This document shows positions 15,630-58,771 of a stretch of DNA of 64,000 nt, in pieces (positions within the stretch are counted from its first letter, which is position 1; every line of letters begins with the position of its first letter). The notes beneath the pieces were generated by a model. It was not told where the DNA came from and searched no databases. It worked only from the letters and a program-made list of their open reading frames with translations. The stretch covers positions 310,001 through 374,000 of the forward strand of contig QKMZ01000001.1 in the NCBI GenBank assembly GCA_003242885.1. The letters are read 5' to 3'. The DNA comes from Candidatus Melainabacteria bacterium. Its GTDB lineage: Bacteria > Cyanobacteriota > Vampirovibrionia > Obscuribacterales > Obscuribacteraceae. Position numbers and translations under genes: made by a program.

Positions 15630-16868
15630 ATGACCTGGGTCGACAAGATACGATCGAATCCGTGGATGGTGCTTTTCGTCTGTTCGTTCGGACTTTTTCA
15701 GGAAGAATTCCTCTACGGCATGGTTTGCCCGCTGACGCCTGAGGCGCCCGCGCATATTTCTGATGAGCACGTCATCAGCACTTTGTACGGTGCCTATGCT
15801 CTGGGCATGTTCATTGCGACGCCGATACTAGGACTTGTCACAGACCGGCTCGGTCGTCGCAAACCTATGATTATTGGCGGTGTGCTTTTGGGTATCGCTG
15901 CGATTCTATTTGCCATCGGAACCAGTCGAGAAATGCTGTTCGTCGGACGAGTCTTTCAAGGTGCCGGCGCCGCTTGCAGTTGGACTGCTGGGTTGGCTCT
16001 GGTGGCGAAATATTGTTCGAAGCACCGTGTGCGCGACATGGGCTATTGCATGTTGGGAGCGACCACAGGCTCGGTCGTGGGACCTTGGGTGGGCGGTGAG
16101 TTATTCGATCGGTTCGGCTATCTGGCGCCGTTTTACTTCGCCATTGGTCTGGTTGTAGTCGATTTGATTTTGCGAGTAGTTTTTACTCCTTCAACTACGA
16201 ATCCAGATAAGCAGCCACCTTGGAGCGAAACGTTCAAAGAATTGGGCGGTATTGTCACGGACAAACGAGTATTGTCCGCAGCCTTTGCTGTGGCGCTGGC
16301 CGCGGCTAGTTGGGCGTTGATGGAACCACTTTTCCCCATGCATGCTATACGAATTGCCAATGCTTCTCCTGCAACCGTAGGTGGTATCATCACCGGATCG
16401 AATTTACTCTATGCGTTTCTTGCACCTGCCGTAAGTATTGTGTGTGATCGCATAGGTGTGAGGACGACAACGGCTCTAGGTCTGGCGATGACCGCAGTGT
16501 TCTTGCCCTTGTTGGCGCTTACTCCTAATTTGTTCTTTGCCGGATCTGTTTTGTGGCTAATAACCATTTCTTACGCGTTTACCATAAATCCTACTTCTGC
16601 AGAACTCGGAGACGCTGTTGACCAGAGGGGCTCGACGTCATATTCCGTCGCCTATGCCGTATACAATCTTGCCTACGCCATAGGCATGATTAGCGTCGAT
16701 TCTTACGTAGAGTTTGTCACTGACTCAGCGCATCACCTTCAGTTGTTGCATATTCTGCTTATCGTGAGCGGGTTATTTGTCATTTGCATTCCGCTGTTTC
16801 TGGTGAAGCCGCAAGTGTCCGAAACAGCGCCGCCTGCGGAAGCAGAGACACCCGCTTCAACCGGTTAG
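15630..16868 (+). CDS. MFS transporter (drug/H+ antiporter-like)
   Basis: 12-TM pattern; GLVTDRLGRRKPMIIGG motif. Confidence 0.92.
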   Translation: MTWVDKIRSNPWMVLFVCSFGLFQEEFLYGMVCPLTPEAPAHISDEHVISTLYGAYALGMFIATPILGLVTDRLGRRKPMIIGGVLLGIAAILFAIGTSREMLFVGRVFQGAGAACSWTAGLALVAKYCSKHRVRDMGYCMLGATTGSVVGPWVGGELFDRFGYLAPFYFAIGLVVVDLILRVVFTPSTTNPDKQPPWSETFKELGGIVTDKRVLSAAFAVALAAASWALMEPLFPMHAIRIANASPATVGGIITGSNLLYAFLAPAVSIVCDRIGVRTTTALGLAMTAVFLPLLALTPNLFFAGSVLWLITISYAFTINPTSAELGDAVDQRGSTSYSVAYAVYNLAYAIGMISVDSYVEFVTDSAHHLQLLHILLIVSGLFVICIPLFLVKPQVSETAPPAEAETPASTG

Positions 16869-16901
16869 CTATGACCCCACGGAAGTGATTTTGCTGGTGT
16901 C

Positions 16902-17314
16902 TTAGTTATCACTGACCAGCGCTGTGATGTTCAGGCTAAAACGTTTTGCAAGGCGTTTCGCTTGTTCTATGCTAAGGTTACGTTCACCCTTCAGAAACTC
17001 GCACACCCGATTTGCTGAGCCGAATTCGGGTATCAGGTCTTTCTGTGATAGGTCGTTCTCTGTCATCAGATATTGGATCAACTCACGCGACGAAAAATGT
17101 GCGATATCACTTTCCCATTTCGATTCGTACTTTTCGATAAGGTCTATGAGAACCTCAAGATGGTCTTTTTCTGCCTGATTTAATTCTTCAAGTCTTGCCG
17201 TGAGTGTGTCGCAAATCTCGAAATCTCGGCTGCTCGTTCGTTTTGCGTATCATTGCGAATTGGGCGAAGCGGAAATCGCTTGTTTAATTGCTCGTATATC
17301 TTCGTATCGTTCAT
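16902..17314 (-). pseudogene. HigA-type (Xre-family HTH) antitoxin, frameshifted by an 8-bp tandem duplication
   Basis: Manual translation: MNDTKIYEQLNKRFPLRPIRNDTQNERAAEI in one frame, then CDTLTARLEELNQAEKDHLEVLIDLIEKYESKW...LSQKDLIPEFGSANRVCEFLKGERNLSIEQAKRLAKRFSLNITALVSDN* in another; aaatctcg|aaatctcg at 17213-17228. Confidence 0.75.
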
Positions 17315-17340
17315 TTCAAATCCTCGATCATCGAAAACGT

Positions 17341-17544
17341 TTAGGGCCCAATGTCAGTTCCAGCAGAATCGAAACCTTTGTAGTTGTCTGTTTTTCCCTT
17401 TAGAAATCCTTGGAGGGTTGAAGATTCAGCCTCTTCGAAAGCTTTGATAATCGCACTCTTAAGAGAAGGAAGTGCAGCGAAAAATGCTATGCACGTCAAT
17501 AAGAATAAGAATCCCGCAGATTTAACCATTGGTCGAACTTTCAC
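17341..17544 (-). CDS. Small single-TM hypothetical protein
   Basis: 67 aa with hydrophobic N-terminus; weak support. Confidence 0.35.
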   Translation of the reverse strand: MKVRPMVKSAGFLFLLTCIAFFAALPSLKSAIIKAFEEAESSTLQGFLKGKTDNYKGFDSAGTDIGP

Positions 17545-17672
17545 TGAATTAGTCCCCCTTCTCCAACTTACCTTTGTCGATTCGCATAGTCAAGAAGTTC
17601 GAATCTAAGTGAAAGCGCGCTGGATTTTAGTATGCTTTTCCGGCTGGCAAAACGAGCCGGGGGATACCAGAC

Positions 17673-19145
17673 ATGTCACGTTCTTTTCTTTCAGACCTAA
17701 GCCAGAGATTCCTTTCAAAAGAGGAGCGTTTTTCGCGCCGCGAGATATTGAAGGGCATGATGGCGACGGCAGCAGGTTTGATGCTAAGCAGTGCGCTGCC
17801 AGGTAGTACGTTTGCCAAAGATGGACGGCGCGTAATCGTCATCGGTGCGGGCTTTTCGGGGCTAGCTGCTGCATTCGAGTTGTCTTGCGTCGGTTATGAC
17901 GTTGTGGTGCTGGAGGCGCGCGATCGTGTTGGTGGTCGTGTGCACACTCTGTACGATTTTGTTCAAGGAAAAACAGTTGAAGCCGGCGCAGAATTGATTG
18001 GTGCCAATCATCCGACCTGGCAAGCGTATGCCAAACGTTTCAAACTGGAGATGTTGGAGCGCACAGACTATCCTGACAGCGCCAAGCCTTGCTTCTTGAA
18101 TGGAAAATTGCTCAGTCCAAAAGAAGCTGAAGCGCTCTGGCATGAGGTAGACGAACAGCTCAACCTTTACAACGCTCTTGCTCAGAAGATCGATCCCATT
18201 CAACCCTGGAGAAGTCCAAACGCGCTCGCGCTCGATAACAAAACAGTCGATAGTTGGATCGATGATTTGAAGTGTTCTGAAGTTTGCAAGCGAGCGATCC
18301 GATTGGCAGAACGCTCTGATGCAAATGATCCGGGATGGGAGAGTTTGCTCGGGCGCCTTTGCATAATCAAAGGCGGCGGGCTGGAGAAGTACTGGACAGA
18401 CACCGAAGTTTATCGCTGCAAAGGTGGCAATCAGCAATTAGCTGAGAAGCTTGCGGATGCGGTAGGGCGAAACAAAATTCGGTTGGAAACACCGGTGGTC
18501 GCTGTTGATATTTTGGACGACAAGGTAAAAGTCGAATTAGAGAATGGAGAAGTTCTGGAAGCAGATGATGTGATACTAAGCGTGCCACCAGGCACGTGGA
18601 AAAGAATTACATTCACTCCTCCATTCCCGCCACAATTGTCGCCACAGATGTCGAACCAGGTGAAGTTTCTCTCTGAGGTCCGGAGCAGGTTTTGGGAGCA
18701 AGACAATCTGTCACCAGACTCTCTGAGCGATGGACCTGTTGCGGAAACTTGGGATGCAACAGATAAACAAGCAGATGAAGGACACGCTTGTTTGACAGTT
18801 TTTGCTGGTGGAAATGCGGCCGACAAAGGAAGAGGTTGGACACATGATCAGCGTATGGCTCATTACGCTCTTGAACTGGAGCGGATTTACCCACGCTATG
18901 GGCAGAATTTTATCAAGGGAATATTTGTTGATTGGCCATCGGATCCCTGGTCCCAAGCTGGTTATTCTGCGCCTGCACCGGGTCAGATTATTACTTTGGG
19001 TCCGATTCTCTATGGTGGTCTTGGGCGTTTGCACTTCGCAGGTGAACATACCAGTTTTGCTTTCCAGGGCTACATGGAAGGTGGATTGCACTCAGGCGCT
19101 TCTGTAGCGAAGCGCCTAGCACAGCGCGATAAGGTGGTGTCATGA
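17673..19145 (+). CDS. Flavin amine oxidase family FAD-dependent oxidoreductase with Tat-like signal
   Basis: SRREILKG followed by a hydrophobic stretch; VIVIGAGFSGLAAAFEL...VVLEARDRVGGRVHT; HFAGEHTS. Confidence 0.93.
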   Translation: MSRSFLSDLSQRFLSKEERFSRREILKGMMATAAGLMLSSALPGSTFAKDGRRVIVIGAGFSGLAAAFELSCVGYDVVVLEARDRVGGRVHTLYDFVQGKTVEAGAELIGANHPTWQAYAKRFKLEMLERTDYPDSAKPCFLNGKLLSPKEAEALWHEVDEQLNLYNALAQKIDPIQPWRSPNALALDNKTVDSWIDDLKCSEVCKRAIRLAERSDANDPGWESLLGRLCIIKGGGLEKYWTDTEVYRCKGGNQQLAEKLADAVGRNKIRLETPVVAVDILDDKVKVELENGEVLEADDVILSVPPGTWKRITFTPPFPPQLSPQMSNQVKFLSEVRSRFWEQDNLSPDSLSDGPVAETWDATDKQADEGHACLTVFAGGNAADKGRGWTHDQRMAHYALELERIYPRYGQNFIKGIFVDWPSDPWSQAGYSAPAPGQIITLGPILYGGLGRLHFAGEHTSFAFQGYMEGGLHSGASVAKRLAQRDKVVS

Positions 19146-20326
19146 GCAGTTATGTAACTGAACCTAGCGAGACAATGAAGTCGACTGGCAAGATTTGCTT
19201 TCGATTGTTGAATGCGTTGTCTGGCAGCAACGAGAATGTTTGCATATCGCCCTTGAGCATTAGCATTGCAATGCAATTAGCACTATCTGGTGCCGCTGGC
19301 AACACGCTTGATGAAATGCTGAACGCGCTGGATATTCATTGTGCAGGGCGTGATGCACTCGCTAACGATTACTACAATTCAATGACTCAGCTTTTGGGGC
19401 AGCCGGTTCGTGGATTTGAAGGTCCTGGCGCGAAGCTGGAGTTTAGTGTCGCGAACTCATTGTGGTCGCATGAGTCGGTTCTTCTGCATCCGGGCTTTGT
19501 TGACTATCTTCAGAGATATTACGCTGCAGAGGCGTATAGTATGAATTTTGCAAATCCGCATACGGTCAACGCAATAAACGCCTGGGTTTCAGCAAAAACC
19601 AACGGTAAAATCCCAGCGATAGTGTCAGATCTTGTACCAGAGCATTTTCTTCTTCTTATCAATTGCGCATACTTTAAGGCTCGCTGGGCCGCACAGTTTA
19701 ATAAGTTCGATACCATTCAAGACAACTTTTTCTTGTATGGCGAAAGTCCGGTAGAAGTTGCGATGATGCGGATGAATTCTACGCTGGCATATTATAGGGA
19801 CCAGAACTGCGAGATAGCAGCATTACCCTACACTGATAAGCGCTTTTGCATGTATGTGATTCTGCCTGCAAAAGGCACATCGCTAAAACATTTTGTTGCA
19901 AGCTTCAGCCAAGAACAATATTGGAGGTCGATTGCTGCCATGACTGACCATCAAGGTCAATTCTCGATGCCACGTTTTAAGTTTCAGTATGGCCAATTCA
20001 TGCGGTCTCACCTCGCGCAGCTCGGCATCAAGGAAGCTTTCTCGGAGCAGGCTAATTTCTGGAATATGCTTTCACCCAACCAGCCGAAATTGCCATTTTT
20101 CAAAATTGATGAAGTTATTCACAGGACCTTTATCGATGTGAATGAAGAAGGCACGGAAGCTGCCGCGGCCACTGCGGTCATGATGTGGGGAGCAGCTGCC
20201 AGACAGGCACCGCCACCGTTCCAGATGGTAGTCGACCGGCCCTTTATGTTTGTCATTGCAGAAAAAAAATCTGACGCGATTCTATTTGCAGGCAGCGTTC
20301 AAGATCCTCGGCATCTCGGCGCGTAG
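19142..20326 (+). CDS. Serpin (serine protease inhibitor family)
   Basis: NVCISPLSISIAMQLALSGAAGNTLDEM; INCAYFKARW; FIDVNEEGTEAAAATAV hinge; DRPFMFVI near the C-terminus; ATGA overlap with upstream gene. Confidence 0.95.
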   Translation: MSSYVTEPSETMKSTGKICFRLLNALSGSNENVCISPLSISIAMQLALSGAAGNTLDEMLNALDIHCAGRDALANDYYNSMTQLLGQPVRGFEGPGAKLEFSVANSLWSHESVLLHPGFVDYLQRYYAAEAYSMNFANPHTVNAINAWVSAKTNGKIPAIVSDLVPEHFLLLINCAYFKARWAAQFNKFDTIQDNFFLYGESPVEVAMMRMNSTLAYYRDQNCEIAALPYTDKRFCMYVILPAKGTSLKHFVASFSQEQYWRSIAAMTDHQGQFSMPRFKFQYGQFMRSHLAQLGIKEAFSEQANFWNMLSPNQPKLPFFKIDEVIHRTFIDVNEEGTEAAAATAVMMWGAAARQAPPPFQMVVDRPFMFVIAEKKSDAILFAGSVQDPRHLGA

Positions 20327-36189: not shown

Positions 36190-36531
36190 TTATTGGGTTT
36201 TTGGCTCTTTGCGGGTCAAGAAACCTTTTAGCCATTCTGCAAAGGAGATTCCTTTTGCAGATGAGGCTGCGGTCTGCTGTGCCTCGGAAAGGGACGAACC
36301 ATTGGCGACCAGATGAATGATTTTCGCTACTTCATCGTCTTCTGGAAATCTACCAAGCTTGCTCTTGGAATAAATGAGCACACCCTTGTCTTCAATTTCG
36401 AATACGCCGCCGCTTGATTTAACAAGCTCTGATTCTTCGGAAAACTGACTTTCTAATTCCGCTGCCAACCTGACAGCTCTAGCTTGATAGCCTCAAGCTC
36501 CGCAGTAGGTGATTTTAAATCTCTTTGCCAT
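36190..36531 (-). CDS. Selenoprotein W / Rdx-family protein with in-frame TGA (Sec13)
   Basis: Manual translation from ATG 36531: MAKRFKITYCGAUGYQARAVRLAAELESQFSEESELVKSSGGVFEIEDKGVLIYSKSKLGRFPEDDEV...; TGA at 36495-36493; GGAGG ribosome-binding site upstream of the ATG. Confidence 0.9.
36461..36477 (-). promoter_or_regulatory. Bacterial SECIS-like apical hairpin
   Basis: GCTGTC-AGGTT-GGCAGC on the minus strand, starting 15 nt after the TGA; 6-bp stem with one G.U and a GGU in the loop. Confidence 0.65.
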
Positions 36532-36552
36532 AAACCCTCCTTGATTCCAGTT

Positions 36553-36568
36553 GTGTCCGTTCGGACAC
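36553..36568. promoter_or_regulatory. Inverted repeat GTGTCCG-TT-CGGACAC upstream of the selenoprotein (possible operator)
   Basis: Perfect 7+2+7 dyad 21 bp upstream of ATG 36531. Confidence 0.5.
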
Positions 36569-36670
36569 CATCATGTTATCTTACCGCCCTTGAAACGGAC
36601 GTGTAAGAAAAGCCATCTAACAGTTGAAGACTGGCTTGTTTGAGACCGGTTCCAATTGAGGCGCACAAAC

Positions 36671-37468
36671 CTACGGAAAGCTGCGGAACAAGCGTTTCCA
36701 CCAGGGCAAACTCAAGTACGCCTCGTACTGCTGTTTGAAGGCGACCATTTCGCGTTGAGCGCTGACCAGCTCATCCTTGAGCATTTGATTGTTGTGCTGG
36801 TTGGTTTCAAGCAGGCGCATCGAATTCGTCATTTCGTTCAGCATGCGGAGGTCTTCAACGTGCTGGCGTGTCTCATCTGCGAGGGCTTTGTGCACTTTGA
36901 CCAGCTCTTTGAGCAGTTGCTCGACTTCTTCGGAGCGGTCGATGATGATGGTTTGATTCTCCAGCCCGTCTTCTGAGGGCTTCACCACAAATGCTTCTTT
37001 CGGCTTGCTGTTAGGCAGAGCCAGATTCAACGCTTCTTCCAGTAAATTTGGTATCAAGTCGTCACCTTCTGCTTCTCTTGCCTGTTCTTCGTCTTTCGAG
37101 CGATGTCTGACCTTAAAACTGTCGGGCGGTATAACACGCCACTCATCGTTGCCGTCGATGCGGATCTTCTTTGCTATCCAGCCATCCGGGAGCTTGTTGC
37201 CCCAGCGACCCAGGATACTGCGCTCGAGTGCTCGCACGGAGCGTCCTAAAAGAGATGAGGCTTCTTTGATGGTGAGCGCCGGACGTGCCAGCTCCTCTTC
37301 CGTCATTAAGTCAGAAATTGATTCCGAGTCTCCGTATTCATCGCATTCATCGCATTCTTCAGCGCCTGCTGATTGCGTGTCCGGATTGCTTTTCAGTTTG
37401 ATTTCCTGCTCGATTTCCGCGGGTGCTTTTGTTTCCAACTCGGTAGTTTCGACCATCTTCGCCCTCAA
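36671..37468 (-). CDS. MerR-like HTH domain plus coiled-coil protein
   Basis: TIKEASSLLGRSVRALERSILGRWGNKLPDGWIAKK followed by coiled coil. Confidence 0.65.
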   Translation of the reverse strand: MRAKMVETTELETKAPAEIEQEIKLKSNPDTQSAGAEECDECDEYGDSESISDLMTEEELARPALTIKEASSLLGRSVRALERSILGRWGNKLPDGWIAKKIRIDGNDEWRVIPPDSFKVRHRSKDEEQAREAEGDDLIPNLLEEALNLALPNSKPKEAFVVKPSEDGLENQTIIIDRSEEVEQLLKELVKVHKALADETRQHVEDLRMLNEMTNSMRLLETNQHNNQMLKDELVSAQREMVAFKQQYEAYLSLPWWKRLFRSFP

Positions 37469-41978: not shown

Positions 41979-42069
41979 TCAGTGTGGCGTCACTCACCTG
42001 TCGTAGCGATAGGTCACGCGGCACCGTATATGGTGCGGATATGCGCGCTTGGTTGAATTAGTTCGTAAA

Positions 42070-42105
42070 TCAGTGAATCAATCAGTGAATCAATTAGTGA
42101 ATCAA
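42070..42105. repeat. Three 12-bp tandem repeats (tcagtgaatcaa) across the end of the thioredoxin-like gene
   Basis: Direct reading. Confidence 0.85.
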
Positions 42106-42648
42106 TTTGAGCGCCGGCAGTTTTTTTGCTGCAATTTGCGAACTGCTTTCGTCATCAGAAGGTGGCTCTGTTATAAGCCTGGAGATTGACTTTGCCAGTT
42201 CTTGCCGATTGTTTTCTTTGTAAGTGACATACCGCTCTTCCAGGCACCCGTCTTTGAACAGCAGGACAGCGGGCACTTCGGGAACATCATATTTGTAACT
42301 CAGCCCCAGATTCTTGTTGAGGTCGAGCCTTACGTAATCGACCTTTCCGCCGAATCTCGATACCAACTCGACAATCGATTTGGCTGCCGGATCGCAAGCT
42401 GGGCAAGTGGGCAGCGAAAATTCGACCAAAACAATTCCTCGTCTTGCCAGCACGCGCGTACGAAACTTCAATTCCTGCTCGTTTTTCAAAGTGCGAGCGA
42501 GGTGTTCGTTGTGTTCGGCTTTATTGCCGAACGGTACAAAGGTGCCCAGCTGGTCGACTCCGATTTGTGCTGCGCACGGCAAAACGTTTATGCAGACAAG
42601 CAACAAGATTGATACGCATCTAGCGAAAGACAAATTCATATGAACCAA
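42094..42648 (-). CDS. Secreted thioredoxin-like protein
   Basis: Signal peptide; VEFSLPTCPACDPAAK; VDYVRLDLN; VPAVLLFKDG. Confidence 0.85.
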   Translation of the reverse strand: MVHMNLSFARCVSILLLVCINVLPCAAQIGVDQLGTFVPFGNKAEHNEHLARTLKNEQELKFRTRVLARRGIVLVEFSLPTCPACDPAAKSIVELVSRFGGKVDYVRLDLNKNLGLSYKYDVPEVPAVLLFKDGCLEERYVTYKENNRQELAKSISRLITEPPSDDESSSQIAAKKLPALKLIH

Positions 42649-58171: not shown

Positions 58172-58771
58172 ATGAACGGTAATAATCTCGACGTCAACTA
58201 TGATTTGCTCAGTGCGGACATAATCAAGCGCGCTGAAAAAATTGCGCTTATTCTTATGGATGTTGATGGAGTGATGACTGATGGCACGCTCTATTACTTG
58301 CCTGGTGCGAACGGCGAAGCTGTTGAATTCAAAGGTTTCAATTCGCATGATGGTTTGGGATTACACTTCTGTCACGCTGCCGGTATCAAAACTGGCGTGA
58401 TTAGTGGAAGAGATTCTTTTGCGACGACAGAACGTGCGCGTATGCTCAAGATGACATACGTGTATCAAGGACATTTGAAGAAGGTTCCATCATTCGAAGA
58501 GATCCTTCAAGATGCCCAATTGCCCAATGAAGCAGTTGCATTTATTGGTGATGATTTTACTGATGTGCCTTTGTTCAACCGCGTCGGACTTGCGTGTGCA
58601 GTAGCAAATGCGAGGCCGGAAGTTAAGGAGCAAGCACACTACATTACTGCTCAGAGCGGTGGCAACGGTGCGGTTCGAGAAGTGGTCGAGATAGTTTTGA
58701 AAGCGCGTGGCTTTTGGCCACCTATTCTCAAACAGTACGAATTGATCGAAGCGGCGAAAGTAACCACCTAA
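58172..58771 (+). CDS. KdsC-like HAD phosphatase
   Basis: LILMDVDGVMTDGTLYY; GFNSHDGLGL; VISGRDS; AFIGDDFTDVPLF; track ORF starts at 58061 but ATG 58172 fits better. Confidence 0.9.
   Translation: MNGNNLDVNYDLLSADIIKRAEKIALILMDVDGVMTDGTLYYLPGANGEAVEFKGFNSHDGLGLHFCHAAGIKTGVISGRDSFATTERARMLKMTYVYQGHLKKVPSFEEILQDAQLPNEAVAFIGDDFTDVPLFNRVGLACAVANARPEVKEQAHYITAQSGGNGAVREVVEIVLKARGFWPPILKQYELIEAAKVTT

Follow-up and report, generated by a model that had tools for sequence, protein, structure and literature searches.

The window analysed here, a stretch of 64,000 nucleotides from a relative of Candidatus Obscuribacter, carries on its minus strand (17314-16902) a gene that is most probably the pseudogene of a solitary HigA-type antitoxin of the E. 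coli HigBA kind, recently broken, devoid of a toxin and inserted in one lineage only. An exact 8-bp tandem duplication puts its two halves out of frame, its relatives read through the same site without interruption, and the segment that holds it is absent between the same neighbours in sister species. In sum, the locus looks like a stray toxin-antitoxin fragment in ordinary decay.

An 8-bp tandem duplication breaks the reading frame

The higA-like gene starts at an ATG (17314-17312) with a GAGGA-like ribosome site upstream. Its parts are the following:

17222..17314, minus strand: 5' part of the higA-like gene in the frame of the start codon, MNDTKIYEQLNKRFPLRPIRNDTQNERAAEI; the N-termini of relatives match (FPLRPIR...N..AAEI)
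17213..17228: exact 8-bp tandem duplication, AAATCTCG followed by AAATCTCG, the frame break site; none in eight aligned relatives
16902..17219, minus strand: 3' part in the shifted frame, with the rest of the N-terminal domain and the C-terminal HTH, to the stop; 105-aa open frame
16902..17081, minus strand: predicted TTG-start ORF of 59 aa, HTH only; the shifted frame has no other ORF of 50 aa or more with an ATG, GTG or TTG start

Translation from 17314(-) yields MNDTKIYEQLNKRFPLRPIRNDTQNERAAEI and runs on for 13 out-of-frame residues to a stop, 44 residues altogether, and translation of the second frame from 17219(-) yields EICDTLTARLEELNQAEKDHLEVLIDLIEKYE...ALVSDN, 105 aa open to the stop at 16902. 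The switch of frame coincides exactly with the duplication in the 16-mer AAATCTCGAAATCTCG (17213-17228), which occurs once in the 64-kb window; its 8-bp repeat boundaries can be shifted some bases either way, as is true of any tandem repeat. Exact period-8 tandem duplications are expected about 0.8 times per 64 kb (shuffled window) and two were observed. The repeat alone thus proves nothing, and its weight comes from its position at the frame break and from the relatives. When the DNA of the window copy is aligned with that of eight homologues, the 8 extra bases are found in the window copy alone, and both protein and DNA alignments show that relatives carry AAEICD or a near variant across the break site, without insertion. 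All family-level homologues at least 54% identical that span this site have uninterrupted frames. The earlier note had proposed that the duplication breaks this gene and had raised natural splitting of homologues at the same place as the finding that would speak against it; the translations and the eight aligned relatives, which lack the second copy, bear out the break, and no such splitting is seen.

The window copy therefore does not have an intact reading frame, and besides the duplication it is free of accumulated stops or shifts. As a second frame break is absent, the break is probably recent. The remaining output of the gene would be at most the 44-aa peptide and, should the TTG serve as a start, a fragment that has the HTH but lacks the N-terminal domain.

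The other exact 8-bp tandem pair of the window (58513-58528) was considered as a second break and rejected, as it falls within a HAD-like gene that is open and can be aligned to the sister species in a single frame. Elsewhere, a short exact array at 42068-42107, not expected by chance, consists of 12-bp units in tandem (AATCAGTGAATC together with a variant).

A HigA-type antitoxin without its HigB partner

Matches to the HigA-like gene were detected in 43 of the 99 genomes searched (the window's own included). The best relatives are 54-67% identical over the 3' part and uninterrupted in frame; those relatives that bear a name are members of Candidatus Obscuribacter or the Obscuribacterales. 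In Pfam, the window piece matches HTH_3 below the cut-off and its relative L004 (G015) above it, and PADLOC matches the HigA part of the window, in its 3' open frame, to the first 120 positions of PD-Lambda-2_B (E=1e-18). The family HigA profile matches the solved HigA structures 5ycl and 5ifg (E ~4e-12, 117 positions), so that similarity to known HigA covers both the N-terminal domain and the HTH. Viral contigs contained no relative of the gene, and a phage origin was rejected on this ground.

The related genomes contain 28 loci in which HigA is immediately preceded by a HigB gene, and the same order is found in four more distant loci (Acidobacteria, Bacteroidales). The HigB of three relatives, tested in Pfam, match PF09907 HigB_toxin (E ~1e-25), and that of one relative matches solved HigB chains (E ~3e-7). 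The assignment of the window gene to HigA-like antitoxins with an Xre-like HTH, already made in the earlier note, is thus well founded, its relatives being mostly placed directly behind a PF09907 HigB and the family profile matching the solved E. coli and Shigella HigA.

No HigB is present in the window, and the gene is therefore not directly downstream of one. A sensitive six-frame search of 17251-17700, upstream of the gene, returned only short matches at chance level, so that a HigB remnant beside the gene was rejected and the absence of an adjacent toxin, as first noted from the sequence, was confirmed. PF09907 is matched only once in the genome, on contig C15, by a gene next to a HigA with 44% identity to the window copy. 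This HigA is the only other one of the genome and it is paired with HigB, which led us to reject a mobile copy within the genome itself.

The gene occupies a site that is empty in sister species

The surroundings of the gene are organised as follows:

15630..16868, plus strand: MFS transporter gene, left flank; PF07690, 74-92% identical in sister species
16869..17344: segment of about 476 bp (~0.47 kb), inserted in this lineage only, that holds the higA-like gene; absent between the same neighbours in G005 and G006 (and G002, G004)
17341..17544, minus strand: small ORF of 67 aa with a hydrophobic N-terminal stretch, lying 26 bp upstream of the higA-like gene; also kept by sister species that lack the antitoxin
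17673..19145, plus strand: flavin amine oxidase gene, right flank; PF01593, 91-94% identical along its full length in G005 and G006

The transporter and amine oxidase genes are adjacent in sister species (73-94% identical; 76-94% for the neighbours in G005 and G006). In G005 and G006 the space between them holds only the small minus-strand ORF, whose stop codon in G005 overlaps that of the transporter; an apparently similar small ORF occupies the slot in G004, and G002 has neither the small ORF nor HigA. In the window, some 472 additional bases with the HigA gene come after this small ORF. The small ORF has no Pfam match, and its C-terminal ...FL.G....KGFD.A... is common to the relatives. TTAG is found at both edges of the insert (16865-16868 and 17341-17344) and may be a duplicated target or, being 4 bp only, chance. 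Next to this region, a complete serpin gene (19142-20326, plus strand; PF00079, E=1e-96) shares 4 bases with the 3' end of the amine oxidase gene and is kept in G005 (72%) and G006 (46%).

A slot that is empty of HigA but keeps the small ORF indicates that HigA is the newcomer and that the small ORF is not its toxin. This bears on the idea that the ORF is a non-HigB toxin and the pair a new toxin-antitoxin arrangement. Although both are on the same strand, 26 bp apart, and the ORF has a hydrophobic N-terminus, its conservation without a following HigA in G005, G006 and apparently G004 led us to reject this reading, to which we grant next to no probability.

We propose that the antitoxin gene arrived as a toxin-free fragment, which entered between the MFS gene and the small ORF; alternatively, higB would have been lost during the insertion or later. 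Having no toxin to neutralise, the antitoxin would have been dispensable, and a duplication of 8 bp by replication slippage would then have inactivated it.

Nature of the frame break

The otherwise whole reading frame would fit a loss that is very recent, one that is reversible, and an error of the assembly alike. Under an assembly or consensus error, the genome would really contain a single copy and this solitary HigA would be intact, with a possible role in anti-addiction or as a plain repressor. The gene has no fault besides the duplication, the other solitary HigA of the family are intact and the window's genome is a 17-contig assembly, all of which would agree with such an error. We nonetheless consider it unlikely, because base-calling errors do not typically produce a clean 8-bp duplication where the sequence is non-repetitive and because frameshift errors are uncommon in this DNA: over the first 36 kb of the window, about 30 ORFs from G002 and G005 could be aligned, all of them in a single frame but for one unclear exception. 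The exception, at 36484-36931 on the plus strand, is a 144-aa ORF of G005 that aligns in three frames and marks either another decayed gene or no gene.

The earlier note had also suggested a reversible slippage switch, in which loss and gain of the 8-bp copy turn HigA on and off in the population. Two perfect adjacent copies can indeed revert by slippage, and the frame is whole apart from the duplication. Yet the switches of this type that are known rely on arrays longer than two copies, and the repeat is found in no relative, the window having two copies and each of the eight aligned relatives one. Moreover, there is no toxin partner to be switched, and exact 8-bp tandem pairs arise by chance about once per 64 kb. 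A literature search on two-copy tandem switches in bacteria returned nothing pertinent. The switch thus found no support, and we regard it as very improbable. The same low standing is given to a broader version, according to which solitary HigA recur as stand-alone genes, in anti-addiction or as repressors, and the window copy is held reversibly off by its duplication.

Regarding the preferred reading, a recently inactivated pseudogene, the divergence of the window copy offers a hint. It forms the longest end branch of the tree (0.48 vs a median of 0.19) and, among 35 positions that are otherwise invariant, shows three departures (Y to H, P to S, S to N), compared with 0-2 in most intact relatives and 5 in one. 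Together, the long branch and the three departures point to weakened constraint but are not decisive, and the branch may reflect sparse sampling only: synonymous sites are at saturation (pS 0.92), which deprives a dN/dS value for this branch of meaning.

Solitary HigA genes elsewhere in the family

Six other HigA genes without HigB upstream, all with open frames, are present in five genomes of the same family: L004 and L086 (G015), L006 (G030), L008 (G042; just 333 bases of DNA available upstream), L023 (G006) and L085 (G008). The five solitary rows on the tree are scattered, requiring 5 changes for 5 rows, and clustering of solitary copies was therefore rejected. Judged from this distribution, either repeated toxin loss or repeated stray insertion would fit. 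In G003, of the same genus, locus L047 (G003:C464, 4390-4521) is a HigA relic in a much more advanced state of decay, which has two stops and no HigB nearby and lies in a different place.

The view that an orphan antitoxin is free to decay, put forward in the earlier note, is consequently only partly upheld: the window copy and the G003 relic are in line with it, whereas the six solitary HigA with open frames show that solitary copies do not always decay. These copies may be useful rather than debris.

Comparison with known systems and significance

By itself, the window gene is one more decaying orphan antitoxin, of minor weight. With an empty site in sisters and paired relatives in the family, it is a clean example of the turnover of toxin-antitoxin fragments in a little-studied, non-photosynthetic cyanobacterial lineage; a literature search retrieved no paper on toxin-antitoxin systems in Obscuribacter. 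The intact solitary HigA of the family are a better subject for asking whether orphan antitoxins have a purpose.

The locus resembles E. coli K-12 and Shigella HigBA (HigA 5ifg and 5ycl, HigB PF09907) in its family HigA profile, in the HigB of its relatives and in their toxin-first order. Unlike HigBA, the window copy lacks HigB and is out of frame, and the relatives carry an FPLRPI motif near the N-terminus. The PADLOC matches, of the window HigA part to PD-Lambda-2_B and of the relatives' HigB to PD-Lambda-2_A, also recall PD-Lambda-2. However, the B model has 402 positions, of which the window copy and its relatives match the first 120 only, and the window has no A partner, so that membership in this anti-phage system was rejected.

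Orphan antitoxins, HigA among them, are already well known (PMC7354431, PMC12654330). HigA-1 is reported to be the most abundant orphan antitoxin in the MEER set of a marine survey (PMC12654330), and according to a review (PMC7354431) the majority of orphan antitoxins in one Klebsiella survey resembled degraded systems. The window gene shares with these a HigA-type antitoxin without its toxin; it differs from them in that the orphan is itself broken and in that its empty site can be seen in sister species.
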